Below, one piece after another: positions 6,010 through 55,720 of a stretch of 64,000 bases of DNA. The stretch is from NCBI GenBank assembly GCA_900316285.1, contig ONCG01000013.1, positions 62,001-126,000 of the forward strand, in the 5' to 3' direction. The translations under genes and the position numbers were made by a program. Each line of letters starts with the position of its first letter. The stretch's first letter is position 1. This DNA comes from an uncultured Prevotellaceae bacterium. Its GTDB lineage: Bacteria; Bacteroidota; Bacteroidia; Bacteroidales; Bacteroidaceae. The notes below the pieces were generated by a model. That model saw only the letters and a list, made by a program, of their open reading frames with translations, did no database searches and was not told where the DNA came from.

Positions 6010-9000
6010 AGCTTCTTCGGTTGTTTATTCAGTCGGTACACCACGTGCAGCAGGGCGTAGCGGGGCATGACGTTGGTCCAGGTCTCGGTGCGTCCCTGGG
6101 CATTGAGGGTTCGTGTGACGTTGCTGAGCTGGCCAAGCAGGTCGAAGCCGTCGAACAGGACGAGGAGCTTGCCCTTGAAGAAGGGGCGCGAGAGGCGTGC
6201 GTTCCACACCAGGTCGTTGGTGTTCAGCGCCTCGTCGGCATAGCCCGTGCGCGAGTAGAGGGTGAGGTCGGTCGAGAGGTCGAGCTTCCACGGCAGCTTC
6301 AGAATGGCGGCAAGCGAGGTGCGGCAGGTGAAGGCACTGAAATCCTGGAAGTCCTGACGGTCGCTGCTGAGGCGTTCCCACACGGGTTGGCAGATGAGGT
6401 CGAAGTGGTGGCGCCCTATGTCGGCCTTGAACGAAGGCAACATCGAGATGGCGAGGCGCTGGACTTTAGAACGCTGCGGACCAGTCGACATCGCGGCATC
6501 ACTGGCCGCCGTTCCCACGAGGTCGACGCTCTGGCTGTGGGTGACGTGGAAGGGCAGGTCGAGATTCAACTTCTTGGCCGAGTCGAGGGCGCAGTGGAAG
6601 GTGTAGCCGGCATCGGTGGTATAGTTGCCGTTGACGTTCTCCGGACGGTAGGTGCGTGCACCCGTCCGGACGTCGTAGGTGCAGCCCATCGCAATGGCAT
6701 TGAAGGTGCGCTTTTGGTGCCATTCCATGTAGTGATAGCCTCGCTTGAACCTATAGCTGCCACTTACGCCGAAGTCGGGCGTGACAGACGGATGCAGGCG
6801 GGTGTTGCCCAGCCGGACGTTCATCGGGTCGGTGTCGTCGCGCAGGTCGATGCGTTGCTCCAGTGCGGGCAGCACCTGACGAACGCCCATGGTCATCCCT
6901 ATCTGGCCGTTCTTGAAGTCGAGGAAGGTGTTGTCGTCCATGGTGATGCTGACGGCAGTGCGACAGAGCGTGGTGTCGATGCTGCCGCGCTGGTAGTCGA
7001 GGTGCTGTTGGTGGAGGGTGATGTTGCCGTTGAGTAGCGTCCATATCTGGCCGTACCGGGCCTTGTTGAACTTATAGCCGAGGTTGATGTCGAGCCTGTG
7101 GCTGTTCTCGCGCATGCGGCTGTCGAAAGTGTTGGTGCTGTCCATCACCTGCTGGTAGTCGGTCATGGAGGGCAGGTCGTCGATGGCTGCAGACGAGCCT
7201 ACCCCCTGCCCCTCCCCAAGGGAGGGGTGAAGGCGGTCGAGCAGGTAGAGCGACGAGCGGCGGTGGCGCCAGTTGTGGGTGAAGTAGTAGGTGGCGTGGA
7301 TGGAGCGCCAGCCCTCGCCCAGCGGGATGTTGTAGCCTGCGGTGGCTTGGATGGTGCCGTTGCGGTCGGGGTGGTTGTCGGTGAAGTGGTGGAAGGAGGT
7401 GGAGGGGTGCTGTGATACAGCACCATACTCCACCGACTGGCGGTTGAAGAGGTGCTCGTCGCGGTCGCTGTAGCTGAAGGTAGCACCGAGGCGCAGGTTC
7501 TCGTTGGAGTGCGGAATCTTCACCGTGGCTCCAGTGTTGAACGTTCCCTCGAGGGCATGTCCACGACCGAGACCCTGCTGCAGAATGCGGTTGACGAGCG
7601 TGTCGCGCAAGTTGACGCGTGAGGCAGTGGGACTGAACAGCTCGTCGAGCAACCGTCGGCTGACGTCGGCTACGGGTGCACTGAAGGTGGCTGAGGAAAA
7701 GTCGGAGCTGTGGTCGAAGTGGTGGTATTGCAGGTTCGGACTGATGTGCCAGCGCACGCTCTTGTGATTGCGGTAGAAGTCGTGATAGGAGCTCAGGCGC
7801 AGGTCCTCGTTGCGGCTGTTGCTGAAGCTGTGGTCGTAGAGATCGCCCGATGGCAGGAAGTTCTGGCGCACGGTGCGCGTCTCGCCTTCCGTCCGCTGGT
7901 GGTTGACTGAGGCATCGCCATGATACTCCCACCGTTTGTTGCGGTCGCTGACCCAGAAGCTGAGGTCGGCCCGCTCGGTGCGGCGCAGGGCGTCGCCGGC
8001 ACGCTGCCAGTTATCGCTCTCACCCGGCTTGCTGTCGTCGTCGAGGTTGTTGGCGTTGGCAACGATGGCCAGTCGCGAGAAGTCGCTGTGGCGCATGGCG
8101 AAAAGGCGGGCCAGGTAACGAGCCCCCTCCCTACTGGGGAGGGTCGGGGTGGGGCTAGCTCCCACCTCGGCATTGGCTATCCAGCCTATCATGAACTCCT
8201 TCTTCAATCGCACGTCGATGACGTGGTGCTGTGTCTGACGGTCCTTGATGCCGAGCCACTCGTTCTCGTCGGTCTGCTTGTCGTAGATGGCGATGTCCTT
8301 CACGGTGTAGGCGGGCAGGTTTTCGAGCATGAGCTTGCGGTCGTTGCTGAAGAACTGCTTGCCGTTGAGCAGCAGGTCGTCGACGAACTTGCCCTCGTGG
8401 TAGATGCGGCCGTCGCGCTTCAGCTCAACGCCTGGCAGCTGACTGATGAGGGCGTCGAGCATAGAGCCTTCGGCCAGGATGAAGGCATCGGCATTATAGA
8501 TAATGGTGTCACCCTTGTAGTAGAACTTCACACGGGAGGCCGTGACCGGCACTTCGGGCAGCATGGTCGAGACGGGAGCCAGATAGAGCGGAGGCAGCGA
8601 CCGCTCGTGCTCGCGACGGCCTACGCGCTCAAGCTTGTAGTCGACGTAGGCCGTGCGGTGGCCCACGAAGCTGATGCGGAATATGTACTTGGCGGGCAGG
8701 GCGGGCACCGTGAAACTGAATTCGCTGGTGTCCCACTCGTATACCTTCCCATCTTCACCACTGCCCCACCAGTGATGCTTGGCTACAGCCTGCTGCAGCA
8801 CTGTGCTGTCGGCATCGAGCAGCTCGACGGTGGCACCGATGAGCGGCTTGTGGGCGCGGATGTCCTGCACCTCGCCATTCAGCTTCAACTTTCTGACCTC
8901 CCGCCGCTTGTCGTACTGCACGGTGATTTTACGCCCGTGCACCTTCACCTTCACGGGCAGCCCACGGCAAAGCCGCTTCACGGCTTCGGGTGCCGGGAGC

Positions 9001-17444: not shown

Positions 17445-17445
17445 G

Positions 17446-17600
17446 CGGCGAAGCCGCTGGTTCAAAGCTGCTACGCAGCGTTCAAATGCAGCAAAGCCGC
17501 GTTCAATGGCCTGCGGCCTGTTCAATGCGCCAAAGGCGCGGTTCAATGCTGCTACGCAGCGTTCAAAGCCCTACGGGCGTTCAAAAGGTTTAATGCGACT
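17446..17600. repeat. GTTCAA-linked mini-hairpin array (copy 1)
   Basis: Immediately after the stop codon come seven modules, each a small hairpin joined by GTTCAA. The stems differ but are self-complementary: GCTGC-TAC-GCAGC, GGCC-TGC-GGCC, GCGCC-AAA-GGCGC, GCTGC-TAC-GCAGC and GCCC-TAC-GGGC. Linker constancy with stem covariation suggests that the hairpin itself is maintained. The array reads GTTCAA in the direction of the preceding gene. Confidence 0.85.
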
Positions 17601-17610
17601 GTAGCGCGGG

Positions 17611-17654
17611 AGGACCCTCCCCCCTGCCCCTCCTCCCGTGAAGGGAGGGGAGTA
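17611..17654. repeat. C-rich GGGAGGGG hairpin repeat
   Basis: CCCTCCCCCCTGCCCCTCC followed by CGTGAAGGGAGGGGAG is the intergenic version of the element found inside both receptor genes and the histidine phosphatase gene. Confidence 0.75.
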
Positions 17655-17689
17655 GAATGCTTTTGCAATTGAGAAGTCGTAGATATACA

Positions 17690-17762
17690 TGTAGGGACGC
17701 GACGTGTCGCGTTACTTGGTTTGTTTTCCAACTCCAGTAACGCGGCACGCCGCGTCCCTACA
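17690..17762. repeat. TGTAGGGACGCG palindromic element (copy 1)
   Basis: The ends of this 73-bp element are inverted copies of TGTAGGGACGCG(A/G)CGTG. Each arm is itself palindromic (CGCGACGTGTCGCG, CGCGGCACGCCGCG). Other copies are at 25819-25892, 49607-49679 and 54821-54930, with half copies at 31131-31155 and 49715-49741. It resembles a paired REP/BIME-type element. Confidence 0.85.
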
Positions 17763-17769
17763 TTACTTG

Positions 17770-17899
17770 TGCGAAGCGCTTTACACGGCGACGCAGTCGC
17801 GATTGAACAGGCCGAAGGCCATTGAACGCGCGAAGCGCTTTGAACGCCCGAAGGGCTTTTGAACGCTGCGTAGCAGCCTTGAACAGCGACGCAGTCGCC
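17770..17899. repeat. GTTCAA-linked mini-hairpin array (copy 2, opposite orientation)
   Basis: Six modules read TTGAAC plus hairpin on the plus strand (GCGAC-GCA-GTCGC, GGCC-GAA-GGCC, GCGC-GAA-GCGC, GCCC-GAA-GGGC, GCTGC-GTA-GCAGC). The array ends exactly at the stop codon of the minus-strand zinc-ribbon gene. With copy 1 it forms a symmetrical arrangement between two convergent genes. Confidence 0.85.
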
Positions 17900-18757
17900 T
17901 TAGGCCTCTTCTACGGGAGCCTCGGTTTCGGCCTTTTTCTTGGTTGTGGTCTTGCGGATGGCGCGCTTGCGCTTGGGCTTCTCCTCACCCGTAGCGGCGT
18001 CGATCTTCACACCAGCGAGTTCAGGGTCGATCATGATACGTCCGCAGTATTCGCAGACGATGATCTTCTTGTGCATCTTGATATCGAGCTGGCGCTGTGG
18101 CGGAATCTTGTTGAAGCAACCACCACAAGCATCACGCTGCACGTAGACGATGCCCAGACCGTTGCGGGCATTCTTGCGGATGCGCTTGAAGCTGGTGAGC
18201 AGACGGTCTTCAATCTTCGTCTCGTATTCTTTGGCTTTCGCCTTCAGCTTCTCCTCTTCCTCACGCGTCTCCTGCATGATTTCGTCGAGCTCGCTCTTCT
18301 TGTCGGCCAATGCGACCAAGCGGTCTTCCTTCAGAGCAGCAGCCTGCTCCAAGTCGTGGTTACGTTCATCGATGCGAATCAGAGCCTCTTTGATTTTCTT
18401 CTCGCAGAGCTGAATCTCGAGAGACTGGAACTCTATCTCCTTTGTCAGCGTGTCATACTCGCGGTTGTTCTTCACCTCGTCGAGCTGCTTCTGATAGCGG
18501 TCGACATACGACTGGGCCTCGTTGATCTCGCCCTTCTTCATCGTGATAGCGCTCTGGTAGTCCTTGATTTCGTTCTGGATCTTCTCGATACGAGTGTCCA
18601 AACCAGCAATCTCGTCTTCCAGGTCCTGCACTTCGAGCGGCAGCTCGCCACGCATGGCGCGCTTCTCATCGATACTCGAAAGCGTTGTCTGCAACTGATA
18701 CAACGTCTTCAGCTTCTCTTCTACTGAGAGATCGGTAGGGTCTTTCCTTGATGCCAT
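17900..18757 (-). CDS. coiled-coil protein with C-terminal C4 zinc ribbon
   Basis: The 285-residue protein is almost all charged coiled coil from about 10 to 190. A four-cysteine zinc ribbon follows (about 205-240) with CGGC in QRDACGGCFNKIPPQRQ and CEYC in KIIVCEYCGRIMIDPEL. A lysine- and alanine-rich tail ends it. This is the widespread 'zinc ribbon domain-containing' family usually found beside Nif3-like genes; its role is not well established. Here the Nif3-like gene lies 120 nt upstream on the same strand, which supports an operon. A hairpin array begins right at its stop codon. Confidence 0.9.
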   Translation of the reverse strand: MASRKDPTDLSVEEKLKTLYQLQTTLSSIDEKRAMRGELPLEVQDLEDEIAGLDTRIEKIQNEIKDYQSAITMKKGEINEAQSYVDRYQKQLDEVKNNREYDTLTKEIEFQSLEIQLCEKKIKEALIRIDERNHDLEQAAALKEDRLVALADKKSELDEIMQETREEEEKLKAKAKEYETKIEDRLLTSFKRIRKNARNGLGIVYVQRDACGGCFNKIPPQRQLDIKMHKKIIVCEYCGRIMIDPELAGVKIDAATGEEKPKRKRAIRKTTTKKKAETEAPVEEA

Positions 18758-18877
18758 AAATTAAAACCTCCCCCACCCCCTCCAAAGGAGGGGAGGGCCT
18801 GCCGGTTAATGGGGAGTTTGATGGCAGGCACTGATGGTTATTTTTTTGAGTTTCTAGTTTCTAGTTTCGAGTCTCTA
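18758..18877. repeat. repeat-filled spacer between two co-directional genes
   Basis: The spacer holds a C-rich hairpin (CCCCCTCC/GGAGGGG, 18772-18800) and a TTTCTAG tandem repeat (18850-18875). The second resembles the repeat at 56487-56520. Confidence 0.65.
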
Positions 18878-23159: not shown

Positions 23160-23362
23160 TCTTGAACGCCCGAAGGGCAATTGCGCTCTTGAACCGCGAC
23201 GTAGTCGCATTGAACGGCCGAAGGCCATTGAACGCTGCGAAGCAGCTTTGAACCGAAGGTCATCGACCGAAGCAGTGCTGTCACGCAAAGCGTGGTGCAC
23301 GAAAAAGCGAGGGAGGTAACCGCGACGTAGTCGCTTTGAACCGCTGCGAAGCAGCATTTGAA
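23160..23362. repeat. GTTCAA-linked mini-hairpin array (copy 3) before umuD
   Basis: Modules on the plus strand read TTGAAC with GCCC-GAA-GGGC, GCGAC-GTA-GTCGC, GGCC-GAA-GGCC and GCTGC-GAA-GCAGC hairpins, then a second set near 23318-23362. It stands where the umuD promoter and leader should be, so it may be transcribed with umuD. Confidence 0.85.
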
Positions 23363-23394
23363 AGGGAGCAGCGTCAAAGGAATACAGTTAGCTA

Positions 23395-23527
23395 AGCGGT
23401 AGTGCTACATGCGATATGAATCATGCGACATGCAGTTGTGCTGAACATGCGCCGTGAGTTGGTCGGTCAGACCAAGTCAGCCGTTCCGAGCTGACGATCA
23501 GGATATGAATCTTACGATTCTTTTTTA
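23395..23527 (+). other. unexplained stem-loop-rich segment ending in a T run
   Basis: Successive hairpins GGTC/GACC (near 23460), GTCAGC/GCTGAC (near 23478-23497) and GAATC/GATTC followed by TTTTTT (ending about 23526) look like a small structured RNA with its own terminator. No TAnnTTTG promoter was found upstream, so expression is unproven. No open frame of useful length is present. Confidence 0.35.
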
Positions 23528-23618
23528 GCTCACCCTGCAACCCATGAACACTGCTCCCAGTAAATCAGTATTGGTTGTGTCAATATAGAGAATGATGGAT
23601 GAAAAGTCGCTGCCTGTG

Positions 23619-23744
23619 GTCCCCTCCTCCTGGGAGGAGGGGTGCGGGGTGGTAGAGAAAAACAATGTTCGACATATTTGTTTAATAGGTTTTGACCTTA
23701 TTTGTCTCTACCACCCCTAACCCCTCCTTCCAGAAGGAGGGGAC
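23619..23744. repeat. element of about 126 bp with inverted ends (copy 1)
   Basis: The left arm is GTCCCCTCCTCC-TGGGAGGAGGGG, then GGGGTGGTAGAGA. The right arm is TCTCTACCACCCC, then a CCTCCTTCCAGAAGGAGG hairpin and GGGGAC. A second copy with the same arms and a different centre is at 49307-49443. It looks like a non-autonomous mobile or REP-type element; no target-site duplication was resolved. Confidence 0.8.
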
Positions 23745-23759
23745 TGCAAACTGACTCCA

Positions 23760-25126: not shown

Positions 25127-25139
25127 ATTTTATTTGGTT

Positions 25140-25288
25140 CAATGCGACGAAGTCGCGGTTCAAAGTTCTTTCTCCACTTCGTTACGAAAGCGGCAAAGCC
25201 GAGCGCAAATGTCGCTGCGCGACGTTCAAGGTTCAAAGTTCAATGCGACTACGTCGCGGTTCAAAGCTGCAACGCAGCGGTCCAAGGG
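25140..25288. repeat. mini-hairpin array with TTCTTTCTCC element (copy 4)
   Basis: GTTCAA-linked hairpins GCGAC-GAA-GTCGC, GCGAC-TAC-GTCGC and GCTGC-AAC-GCAGC surround a TTCTTTCTCC/CGAAAGCGG element. It separates the permease and ATPase genes. Unlike other arrays it reads GTTCAA against the direction of the genes. Confidence 0.8.
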
Positions 25289-25923: not shown

Positions 25924-27057
25924 CTATTTTGGCACTTGCATCGTCAGACAATGCACGGAGCCATGCTGGCGAATGATTGTGCGGGCATCAATGGGTATCA
26001 TTTCCCTATCCGGGAAAGCCCGCTGCACCACGCGCAAGGCCTCGGCATCCTTCTCCGGCTGATCATAGGTGGGCACGAGCACCGCCCCGTTAATAACCAG
26101 GAAGTTTGCATAGGTTGCAGGCAGCCGCTCCCCTTGCACCTCTTGAACCTTTGAACGTCGCGCAGCGACATTTGAACTTTGAACCGCGACGCAGTCGCCT
26201 TCCACCTCATAGATGCCATCCGGCATCGGCAGGCGGAGCAGCCTATAGGGCTTGCCATCAGCGGTGCGCAGCGCCTTCAGTTGTTCCTCCAATGCATGGA
26301 AGTCGGCATACTGTTCATCCGCAGAATCGTCGCACCCCACATACACCAGCGTGTCGTCGGGGGCACAGCGCACGATGGTGTCGATATGTCCATCGGTGTC
26401 GTCGCCAACGAGATTTCCATAGTCGAGCCACACCACACGACTGACGCGCAGACGACGCTTCAGCTGCTCCTCAATCTGCTCTTTAGTTAGAGGCTGATTG
26501 CGGTGCGGTGCCAGCAGACACTGCGAGGTGGTGAAGAGCGTTCCCTGCCCGTCGGCCTCTATAGACCCGCCTTCGAGCACGAAGTCCTGATGGTCCTCGT
26601 AGTCGGCGTCTTCAAAAAAGCCGTAGAGGGCCCAGAGCTTATAGGGAATCATATTATCCCAAGCAGCCTGGAACTTCTCGCCCCAGCCGTTGAAGCGGAA
26701 GTCGAGCCAAAGGTAGTCCTTTTCCTCTTCCTCGTCGTTGGCAGATGCTCCTCCTTCAGCGGCAGAATCGGCCGGCTGAGTACTCTTCAGTACGATAGGA
26801 CCGAAATCGCGCGCCCAGGTGTCGTTGTTCGGCAGTTCAGCCACATACACGTTCGGCATCTCGCGAAGCTCGTCAGGCACGTCCGTCTTGAACATCGAGA
26901 GAAGCATCACCTCCTCATGCCGGGCGATGGCGCGAACCATCTCGGCAACAGTCTGGCGTATTTCTTCGAGGTAGGGAGCCCAGTCGGTGGTTTCGTTCGG
27001 CCACGTCAGCAGTACAAAGTCCTGCGGTTCCCATTCAGCGGGTAAGCGGTATGTCAT
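25924..27057 (-). CDS. aguA: agmatine deiminase with an in-frame repeat insertion
   Basis: The 377-residue protein has the peptidyl-arginine-deiminase fold. Family motifs include NNDTWARDFGPI (about 78-89), LDFRFNGWGEKF, FVLEGGSIEADGQG and GDDTDGHIDTI. The catalytic cysteine is near the C terminus in GSVHCLTMQ. The enzyme converts agmatine to N-carbamoylputrescine for polyamine synthesis. About residues 286-305 (CVAVQSSNVAARRSKVQEVQ) are translated from a GTTCAA-type hairpin repeat at 26141-26199. They stand between IYEVEGD and GERLPATYANF, where family members run almost directly on. A second acidic low-complexity stretch lies near 97-112. Confidence 0.92.
   Translation of the reverse strand: MTYRLPAEWEPQDFVLLTWPNETTDWAPYLEEIRQTVAEMVRAIARHEEVMLLSMFKTDVPDELREMPNVYVAELPNNDTWARDFGPIVLKSTQPADSAAEGGASANDEEEEKDYLWLDFRFNGWGEKFQAAWDNMIPYKLWALYGFFEDADYEDHQDFVLEGGSIEADGQGTLFTTSQCLLAPHRNQPLTKEQIEEQLKRRLRVSRVVWLDYGNLVGDDTDGHIDTIVRCAPDDTLVYVGCDDSADEQYADFHALEEQLKALRTADGKPYRLLRLPMPDGIYEVEGDCVAVQSSNVAARRSKVQEVQGERLPATYANFLVINGAVLVPTYDQPEKDAEALRVVQRAFPDREMIPIDARTIIRQHGSVHCLTMQVPK
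26141..26199. repeat. GTTCAA-type hairpin repeat inside the agmatine deiminase gene
   Basis: TTGAAC-linked hairpins GTCGC-GCA-GCGAC and GCGAC-GCA-GTCGC, typical of the intergenic arrays, lie within the coding sequence. The reading frame is preserved and no stop is introduced. Confidence 0.9.
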
Positions 27058-30777: not shown

Positions 30778-30862
30778 CAAGGGCAGCAAAGCTGCGTTCA
30801 ATGCCCTGCGGGCGTTCAAAGCAGCAGAGCTGCGTGTAAACCCCGAAGGGGTGTAAAGAATA
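30778..30862. repeat. GTTCAA-linked mini-hairpin array (copy 5)
   Basis: Directly after the stop come GCAGC-AAA-GCTGC, GCCC-TGC-GGGC and GCAGC-AGA-GCTGC hairpins, then CCCC-GAA-GGGG. They are joined by GTTCAA and finally GTGTAAA, reading in the direction of the gene. A TTCTTTCTCC-type element follows at 30905-30936. Confidence 0.85.
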
Positions 30863-30964
30863 CAGGCAGGTGGTGGAGTGCGTAGCACGACGCTCGGCGA
30901 CGAAGGAGACGCTTTCGTAGCACAGCGGAGAAAGAACCCCTGCTTATTGTGTCAACAACAAATC

Positions 30965-46459: not shown

Positions 46460-46600
46460 ATTGGACTTTGAACCTTGAACGCTGCGCAGCAGCATTTGCG
46501 CTCGCCTATGCCGCTTTCGTAGCGAAGCGGAGAAAGAACTCTAAACTCTCAACTGACTCTAAACACTAAACTCTCCACTCTAAACTCTCAACTACCCTCT
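46460..46600. repeat. mixed repeat block between GH16 and TupA-like genes
   Basis: It holds a TTGAAC-linked hairpin GCTGC-GCA-GCAGC (near 46475), a TTCTTTCTCC-type element (46500-46537) and CTCTAAA/CTCAACT heptamers (46538-46597). The heptamers run into the last codons of the TupA-like gene, which ends at 46566. Confidence 0.75.
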
Positions 46601-55642: not shown

Positions 55643-55654
55643 TACTTAACCTTT

Positions 55655-55720
55655 GAACGCTGCGTAGCAGCTTTTAAACTTTGAACGTAGCGAAGCTACC
55701 TTGAACGCAACGAAGTTGCC
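55655..55720. repeat. GTTCAA-linked mini-hairpin array (copy 6)
   Basis: TTGAAC-linked GCTGC-GTA-GCAGC, GTAGC-GAA-GCTAC and GCAAC-GAA-GTTGC hairpins end at the stop of the next minus-strand gene. Confidence 0.85.

Follow-up and report, generated by a model that had tools for sequence, protein, structure and literature searches.

Tiny GTTCAA-linked hairpin modules in a Prevotellaceae genome as candidate dispersing DNA repeats

What kind of element consists of a constant six-letter linker and a tiny hairpin whose stem changes from copy to copy while its two arms go on matching? The question is raised by a stretch of 64,000 nucleotides from an uncultured Prevotellaceae bacterium (hereafter the window), in which an earlier note, made from the sequence alone, had listed six places with such modules and had suggested mRNA 3' end protection, a protein-binding signal, or a REP-like replicating element as their role. 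Modules are present at all six places, the copy that the note had mentioned inside a gene lies in an agmatine deiminase gene, and a further single module was found (Table 1); three arrays begin right at a stop codon, as had been noticed for several, and a fourth starts just after one. Each unit joins the 6-nt linker GTTCAA to a hairpin with a perfect stem of 4-5 bp and, in most cases, a loop of 3 nt, giving a length of 18-21 nt, with GTGTAA and GTTTAA as minor variants of the otherwise constant GTTCAA flank. GTTCAA is twice as frequent in the window as in shuffled sequence (75 occurrences versus 37.3, sd 6.5), and the genome of the window holds more than 100 modules made of the fixed six-letter linker and a tiny, mostly perfect hairpin. 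A whole-genome search with the pattern GTTCAANGCNNCNNAGNNGC gave 24 matches, versus 0 for the backward control. Identities of 45% to an uncultured Prevotella MAG and 46% to Bacteroides nordii suggest that the bacterium is Prevotella-like.

Table 1. Positions of GTTCAA-linked modules, and of the gene that carries modules in frame, in the window.
Feature	Position	Strand	Context
Array of linker-hairpin modules	17445..17600	+	Begins at stop codon of TerB/DnaJ-domain gene
Module array	17770..17899	-	Begins at stop codon of Zn_ribbon_9 gene 17900-18757
Module array	23160..23362	-	Upstream of Peptidase_S24 gene
Module array	25137..25288	+	Between UPF0014 gene and ABC-transporter gene, sense opposite to both
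In-frame modules	26143..26198	-	Inside agmatine deiminase gene
PAD_porph / agmatine deiminase gene carrying insert	25924..27057	-	Insert is protein residues about 285-307
Module array	30783..30860	+	Just after stop codon; includes one GTGTAA-linked module
Two linkers and one hairpin (GCTGC stem), single module	46468..46493	-	Intergenic; additional to the six places listed earlier
Array of three modules	55653..55720	-	At stop codon

The association of linker and hairpin holds well beyond the window. Our sample of the genome to which the window belongs covered 1.53 Mb (eight contigs, each in full or for the most part; about 39% of 3.89 Mb), and in it neighbouring same-strand GTTCAA words that lie close are mostly spaced by 1-3 nt or 12-16 nt. 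A mini-hairpin of at least 4 bp occupies 115 of the 125 same-strand GTTCAA spacers of 10-17 nt, where shuffling predicts 8.1, and 85 of the 95 distinct spacers among them; about five of the ten distinct spacers lacking a hairpin resemble, by eye, decayed ones. The same sample contains 131 perfect and 20 one-mismatch modules, with five control words giving 1-10 perfect and 0-21 one-mismatch cases. When each of 180 permutations of GTTCAA was scored for a hairpin following it (0.79 Mb sample), the two most often followed were TTGAAC, the complement of GTTCAA (123 of 664), and GTTCAA itself (96 of 664); the third, CTTGAA, overlaps TTGAAC (46 of 619), and the median over all 180 was 1.6%. The 115 hairpin spacers contain 20 distinct stems, nine of which (GCTGC, GCGC, GCAGC, GGCC, GCGAC, GTCGC, GCCC, GCGCC, and GCGGC) make up 101 of the units. 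Loops read TNC in 80 of the 115, equivalent to C(GNA)G when the opposite strand is read. In DNA, mini-hairpins with a GNA loop have exceptional stability (for example, GCGAAGC hairpins); the energy model of the folding tool gave the GNA strand no advantage.

The two arms nearly always match in the window's genome, and the stems covary. For 42 of the 53 distinct 14-nt modules in a fixed register (the other 11, with the hairpin out of register by about one base, were left out), the covariation score was 0.544 versus 0.145 after shuffling, a value that none of 500 shuffles reached and that also exceeded slid controls. Of five covariation measures, two did not rise above the shuffles: how many pairs show a double change and how many pair types occur. 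Across all 53 modules, 197 of 265 cells pair, versus 118.6 when shuffled and 135 in the largest of 1000 shuffles. Covariation and hairpin excess together support the earlier proposal that it is the ability to form a hairpin, and not a particular sequence, that is maintained. Covariation is usually read as a sign of functional RNA, and the modules appear to be a natural case in which it stems from spread at the DNA level.

The functional-RNA reading would have tandem hairpins in transcripts under selection to stabilise 3' ends or to bind protein, and much of what bears on it concerns the placement of modules relative to genes. A simple purpose-made gene caller placed 129 of the 131 perfect modules of the 1.53 Mb sample, at densities per kb of 0.67 in tandem gaps (81 modules), 0.45 in convergent gaps (18), 0.18 in divergent gaps (8), and 0.017 in called genes (22). 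The minimum in divergent gaps favours some transcript role, as do the arrays that follow stop codons, the terminator-like hairpin flanked by an array on each side in two relatives, G499 and G467 (read by eye), and the RNA folds of eight typed modules, at -6.5 to -9.4 kcal/mol. However, the stop codon is the nearer gene end for just 28 of 80 modules in tandem gaps, and some modules lie upstream of genes, such as the Peptidase_S24 gene. Among the 55 arrays, single modules included, those whose two flanking genes agree in direction run with them in 9 cases and against them in 20 (p = 0.06); a further 12 are flanked by genes that disagree, and 14 fall within called genes, some of which may be miscalls (9 with, 5 against). 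The earlier generalisation that GTTCAA reads in the sense of the flanking gene therefore holds for five of the six arrays in the window but not for the larger sample, and neither orientation nor position supports an mRNA 3' end role with a fixed sense. One-mismatch modules, G-U pairs included, are no commoner than background, a comparison with little power at just 20 modules. Arrays are, moreover, absent or replaced at orthologous genes, and copies sit in coding frames. On this balance, we regard selection for an RNA function as improbable. The arrays show no strand bias relative to GC skew at three window sizes, and thus no link to replication strand.

Modules have a patchy distribution among related genomes. 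A double-module pattern matches 7 of 150 genomes of the genus, five of them at least nine times (G000 123, G344 50, G378 13, G430 11, and G307 9); the single matches in G354 and G390 are at background, since the backward control of the pattern gives six single matches over 150 genomes. Closer relatives, found through the DNA of the first array locus, carry 94 (G467), 35 (G495), and 19 (G499) double modules. A stricter pattern matches 5 of 301 genomes of the family, four of them in other genera, and G235, from another genus, has a real-looking array on a 5 kb contig. The earlier note had treated stems elsewhere that are self-complementary no more often than chance as telling against its idea; where the sample is large enough the opposite is found, with hairpins in 44 of 61 spacers in G467 versus 3.7 expected. 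Counts point the same way in G499 (9 of 13, 0.9 expected), G495 (1 of 2, 0.2), G344 (5 of 8, 0.4), G378 (8 of 8, 0.4), and G307 (3 of 4, 0.4), in a set of six samples of which four hold fewer than 10 spacers. Stems are less perfect in G467, G499, G344, and G495 than in the window's genome, and each species seems to prefer its own. A viral origin was considered and rejected: 28 viral stretches match the double-module pattern, the matched place has a stem of at least 5 bp in 4 of the 28, no locus has more than two hairpin modules, and we take these matches as chance or near it.

Arrays at matching gaps are not the same from species to species, and some differ by no more than one unit, in a comparison that does not polarise gain against loss. 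Synteny with the window extends over much of its length in G499, G467, and G344 and over the first 27 kb in G495. In place of the array at 17445-17600, G499 and G467 have different arrays and G495 and G344 none. At 17770-17899, the order GCTGC, GCCC, GGCC, GCGAC is kept in G499, where two of these four modules have altered middle loop bases, the GCGC module is missing, and the first module is a different one; the arrangement is not the same in G495 and G467, and G344 has no array. The array at 23160-23362 corresponds to other modules in G467 and to none in G495 and G499 (G344 lies outside this comparison). At 25137-25288, the stems in G467 are different ones, G499 and G495 carry other tandem repeats instead, and G344 has no array. 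Directly after the stop codon that precedes 30783-30860, none of G467, G499, and G344 has an array, with a lone reversed module in G467 about 190 nt beyond; the place of 55653-55720 is taken in G467 by a single module of reversed orientation and is without modules in G499 and G344. In a wider survey, 52 linker clusters gave 34 cluster-relative pairs, from which examples were read by eye and not counted. For example, C22:114050 and its counterpart in G467 have their first module in common and differ in the second, C22:185728 has its end module in common with G467 and differs in the rest, and other repeats replace the array at C22:30243 in G499 and at C22:184723 in G467. Syntenic gaps that are empty, differently filled, or changed by one unit are not what simple descent of shared positions, the other outcome that the earlier note had set against its idea, would leave.

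Modules also occur in frame in three conserved proteins: agmatine deiminase, RsgA (two sites), and TopB (one site). For agmatine deiminase, 41 of 60 genus genomes give a match that is interrupted at residues 282-287 and 304-311, ten align through, and eight besides G000 have a partial, weak, or no match; GTTCAA modules occur at the site in none of the 17 other readable sequences (the search motif missed 14 more). The loop is filled instead by GGGGCAAG repeats in G495, a CCCCTCC-type palindrome in G467, another filler in G499, and purine repeats in G312 and G320, with nothing in G344. Matches to RsgA and TopB break at the inserts in most of 14 other genomes. RsgA is readable at site A in 12 of these 14 (G150 and G312 not found) and at site B in 13 (G639 not found), and among the readable ones G467 alone has GTTCAA modules, at both sites; CCCCTCC-type or other repeats stand at one or both sites in G495, G499, G344, G467, and G430, and more distant members are short. 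Site A of the RsgA of G430 (L262) holds an in-frame tract of about 90 bases built on AAC/GTT words, another filler family. TopB is readable in 11 others (G378 and G150 not found, no ortholog in G430): G467 has one hairpin unit and the next linker in common with G000, nine lack both, and G495 has a hairpin-free GTTCARGGA tract. The common segment of G467 and G000 reads GTTCAA-GCCC-TRC-GGGC-GTTCAA-GAR-GTTCAA, and G000 has further units. Most of the relatives that could be read lack units at the three proteins, and the in-gene units are therefore gains. Two GCGAC-GAT-GTCRC units in the TopB of G000 resemble the uninterrupted text GGCGACGATG of G344, the 3' arm being the new part, a single case that is suggestive of a host stretch having become one hairpin arm. 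At each of these loops in TopB, RsgA, and agmatine deiminase, sister species thus carry differing repeat families, and such loops may record repeat activity over time.

How could units of such varied stems come to occupy so many sites? The stems of neighbouring units look as if drawn at random from one shared pool of 20. The same stem occurs in 3 of 70 adjacent pairs, versus 6.4 expected by permutation, and we therefore reject growth of the arrays mainly by tandem duplication of neighbours; the deficit is non-significant (P for 3 or fewer 0.10) and excludes no more than that. A common pool implies that units are copied between sites and does not say by what. Purely local growth, in which short-repeat slippage and palindrome-making errors act at each site without copying between sites, would account for the heptamer periodicity of gaps, for the different tandem fillers that occur locally at these sites, and for the presence of both GCGAC-GAT units within one TopB array. 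It does not sit well with the dominance of nine stems, several of which recur in G467 and G499, or with the finding that adjacent units do not generally duplicate one another, and we consider it quite improbable.

Copying between sites could be the work of a transposase. The modules would then be REP-like elements mobilised in trans, with an HUH enzyme or another transposase recognising a short tag next to a hairpin in single-stranded DNA, a reading in keeping with their tag-and-hairpin anatomy, their one-strand loop bias, their dispersal, and the Y1_Tnp matches in G000, G495, G499, G467, and G378. However, there is no Y1_Tnp match in three genomes that carry arrays, G344 (50 double modules, 92% complete), G307 (9, 90%), and G430 (11, 78%). 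Conversely, Y1_Tnp is present in 35 of 60 genus genomes, yet 143 of 150 lack the double-module pattern (the two samples overlap and are not identical), and stem variety within a genome is greater than expected of a transposase that reads sequence. The Y1_Tnp counts do not support RAYT-type mobilisation as a requirement, and mobilisation by a transposase is possible but, to us, rather unlikely. Our search of the Y1_Tnp family found no dedicated enzyme.

We instead give about an even chance to the reading that the modules are a family of very small dispersing DNA repeats copied by template switching that is triggered by the hairpin and guided by the linker. Template switching is our preferred mechanism and is unproven; what the comparisons show are the differences between species and the gains within genes, whereas the copying route is what we infer, and propagation would take place on DNA, with hairpin formation as a condition of being copied. 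A polymerase would stall at the mini-hairpin, the nascent end would re-anneal at another GTTCAA tract, copy one unit, and switch back, and fold-back copying of one arm onto the other would renew the stem and occasionally make a new one. The linker would stay constant because it is the annealing site, and its slippage as a 7-mer would account for the hairpin-free GTTCAA tracts. The seven-base period of gaps and the preference for TNC loops also speak for this reading; the less perfect stems of relatives, the lack of strand bias relative to GC skew, the lack of a stability gain for the GNA strand in the energy model, and the stronger 22-base period of gaps speak against it. More tentatively, we suggest that the repeat may propagate itself without any transposase, the hairpin stalling the polymerase, the linker landing it at another copy, and fold-back keeping the arms matched. 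If this is true, the element is defined by structure and linker rather than by stem sequence and feeds new in-frame peptides into conserved enzymes. How tiny hairpin repeats spread without an obvious transposase becomes a question testable by strain comparison.

Among the three roles first suggested, a REP-like replicating element fits best and mRNA 3' end protection in the gene direction is not supported, and the comparison can be extended to other known systems. The modules belong to the broad kind of repetitive hairpin-forming elements, with many dispersed hairpin-capable copies that are patchy between relatives, and lack tested features of REPs and of Rickettsia palindromic elements. A partial literature search, not all of it aimed at this question, found no published description of GTTCAA-linked hairpin arrays. 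Nostoc small dispersed repeats are tiny mobile hairpins and resemble the modules by description, and GTTCAA does not fit GTTRRRY, the core of integron attC sites. Intrinsic terminators were rejected by reading, the hairpins being followed by GTTCAA or its complement and not by a T run. In the portions of the sources available to us, GTAG/CGTC REP elements and REPINs likewise have a short unpaired tag by a hairpin, many copies that are mainly intergenic with some in genes, and complementary stem changes, and REPs favour unidirectional and convergent gaps (PMC3733652, PMC3116915). Here, however, the flank is GTTCAA rather than GTAG or CGTC at the foot of the hairpin, stems are 4-5 bp, units run head to tail (as in the 125 same-strand spacers) rather than as inverted pairs, and a tyrosine transposase (Y1_Tnp, PF01797) is not consistently present. 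Rickettsia palindromic elements, in the available part of their description, also place palindromic DNA in frame in unrelated conserved genes; they are about 150 bp long and form ten families (PMC10969869), whereas the modules are units of 18-21 nt with 20 variable stems, in arrays, and mostly intergenic. The repetitive and double hairpin-forming elements of sponge mitochondria are often tandem, patchy by species, and found in gaps and, without frameshift, in genes (PMC2800124), but they are organellar, have conserved stems and variable loops, and show no constant 6-nt linker in the part of the description available. Heptamer direct repeats of Beggiatoaceae, Cyanobacteria, and Bacteroidetes are seven-base repeats in gaps, and heptamers are said to favour polymerase slippage; the likeness is by description, and the excerpted account gives the TAACTGA repeats without inserted hairpins (PMC4679880).

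Gaps of the window's genome do show lag-7 periodicity (55.2 per 10,000, versus 5.2 in genes), and GTTCAAA, in any rotation or strand, is their second commonest exact tandem heptamer. At 46520-46600 of the window lies a tract of degenerate CTCTAAA / CTCTCAA heptamers, which represent one family among several of this length in gaps. The strongest gap periodicity is 22, not 7, and comes from another repeat type: tandem arrays with a 22-bp period occur at L105:434-536 and at 20 other places in the 1.53 Mb, with about four or more copies each, differing sequences, and several palindromic cases.

Several other sequence features were noticed as well. Palindromes of the form CCCCTCC..GGAGGGG with varying stems lie at 7209-7227, 17610-17650, 18777-18793, and 23620-23650 of the window, in frame in the same RsgA and agmatine deiminase loops of some relatives, and at a second TopB site in G000. 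A block at 23390-23600, beside the S24 gene, is conserved in G495, G499, and G467 and is possibly an undescribed structured RNA; Rfam gives no match to it at the gathering threshold, and with E relaxed to 1 the matches fall only on the neighbouring palindrome at 23603-23753. An inverted repeat, GTAGGGACGCG...CGCGTCCCTAC, lies at 17690-17765 and at the same place in G495. Finally, a varying phrase of up to about 45 bases, GTTCTTTCTCC...CGAAAGCGGCAAAGCCGAGCGCAAA, recurs on either strand beside arrays, at 25164-25210, 30915-30945, and 46494-46539.
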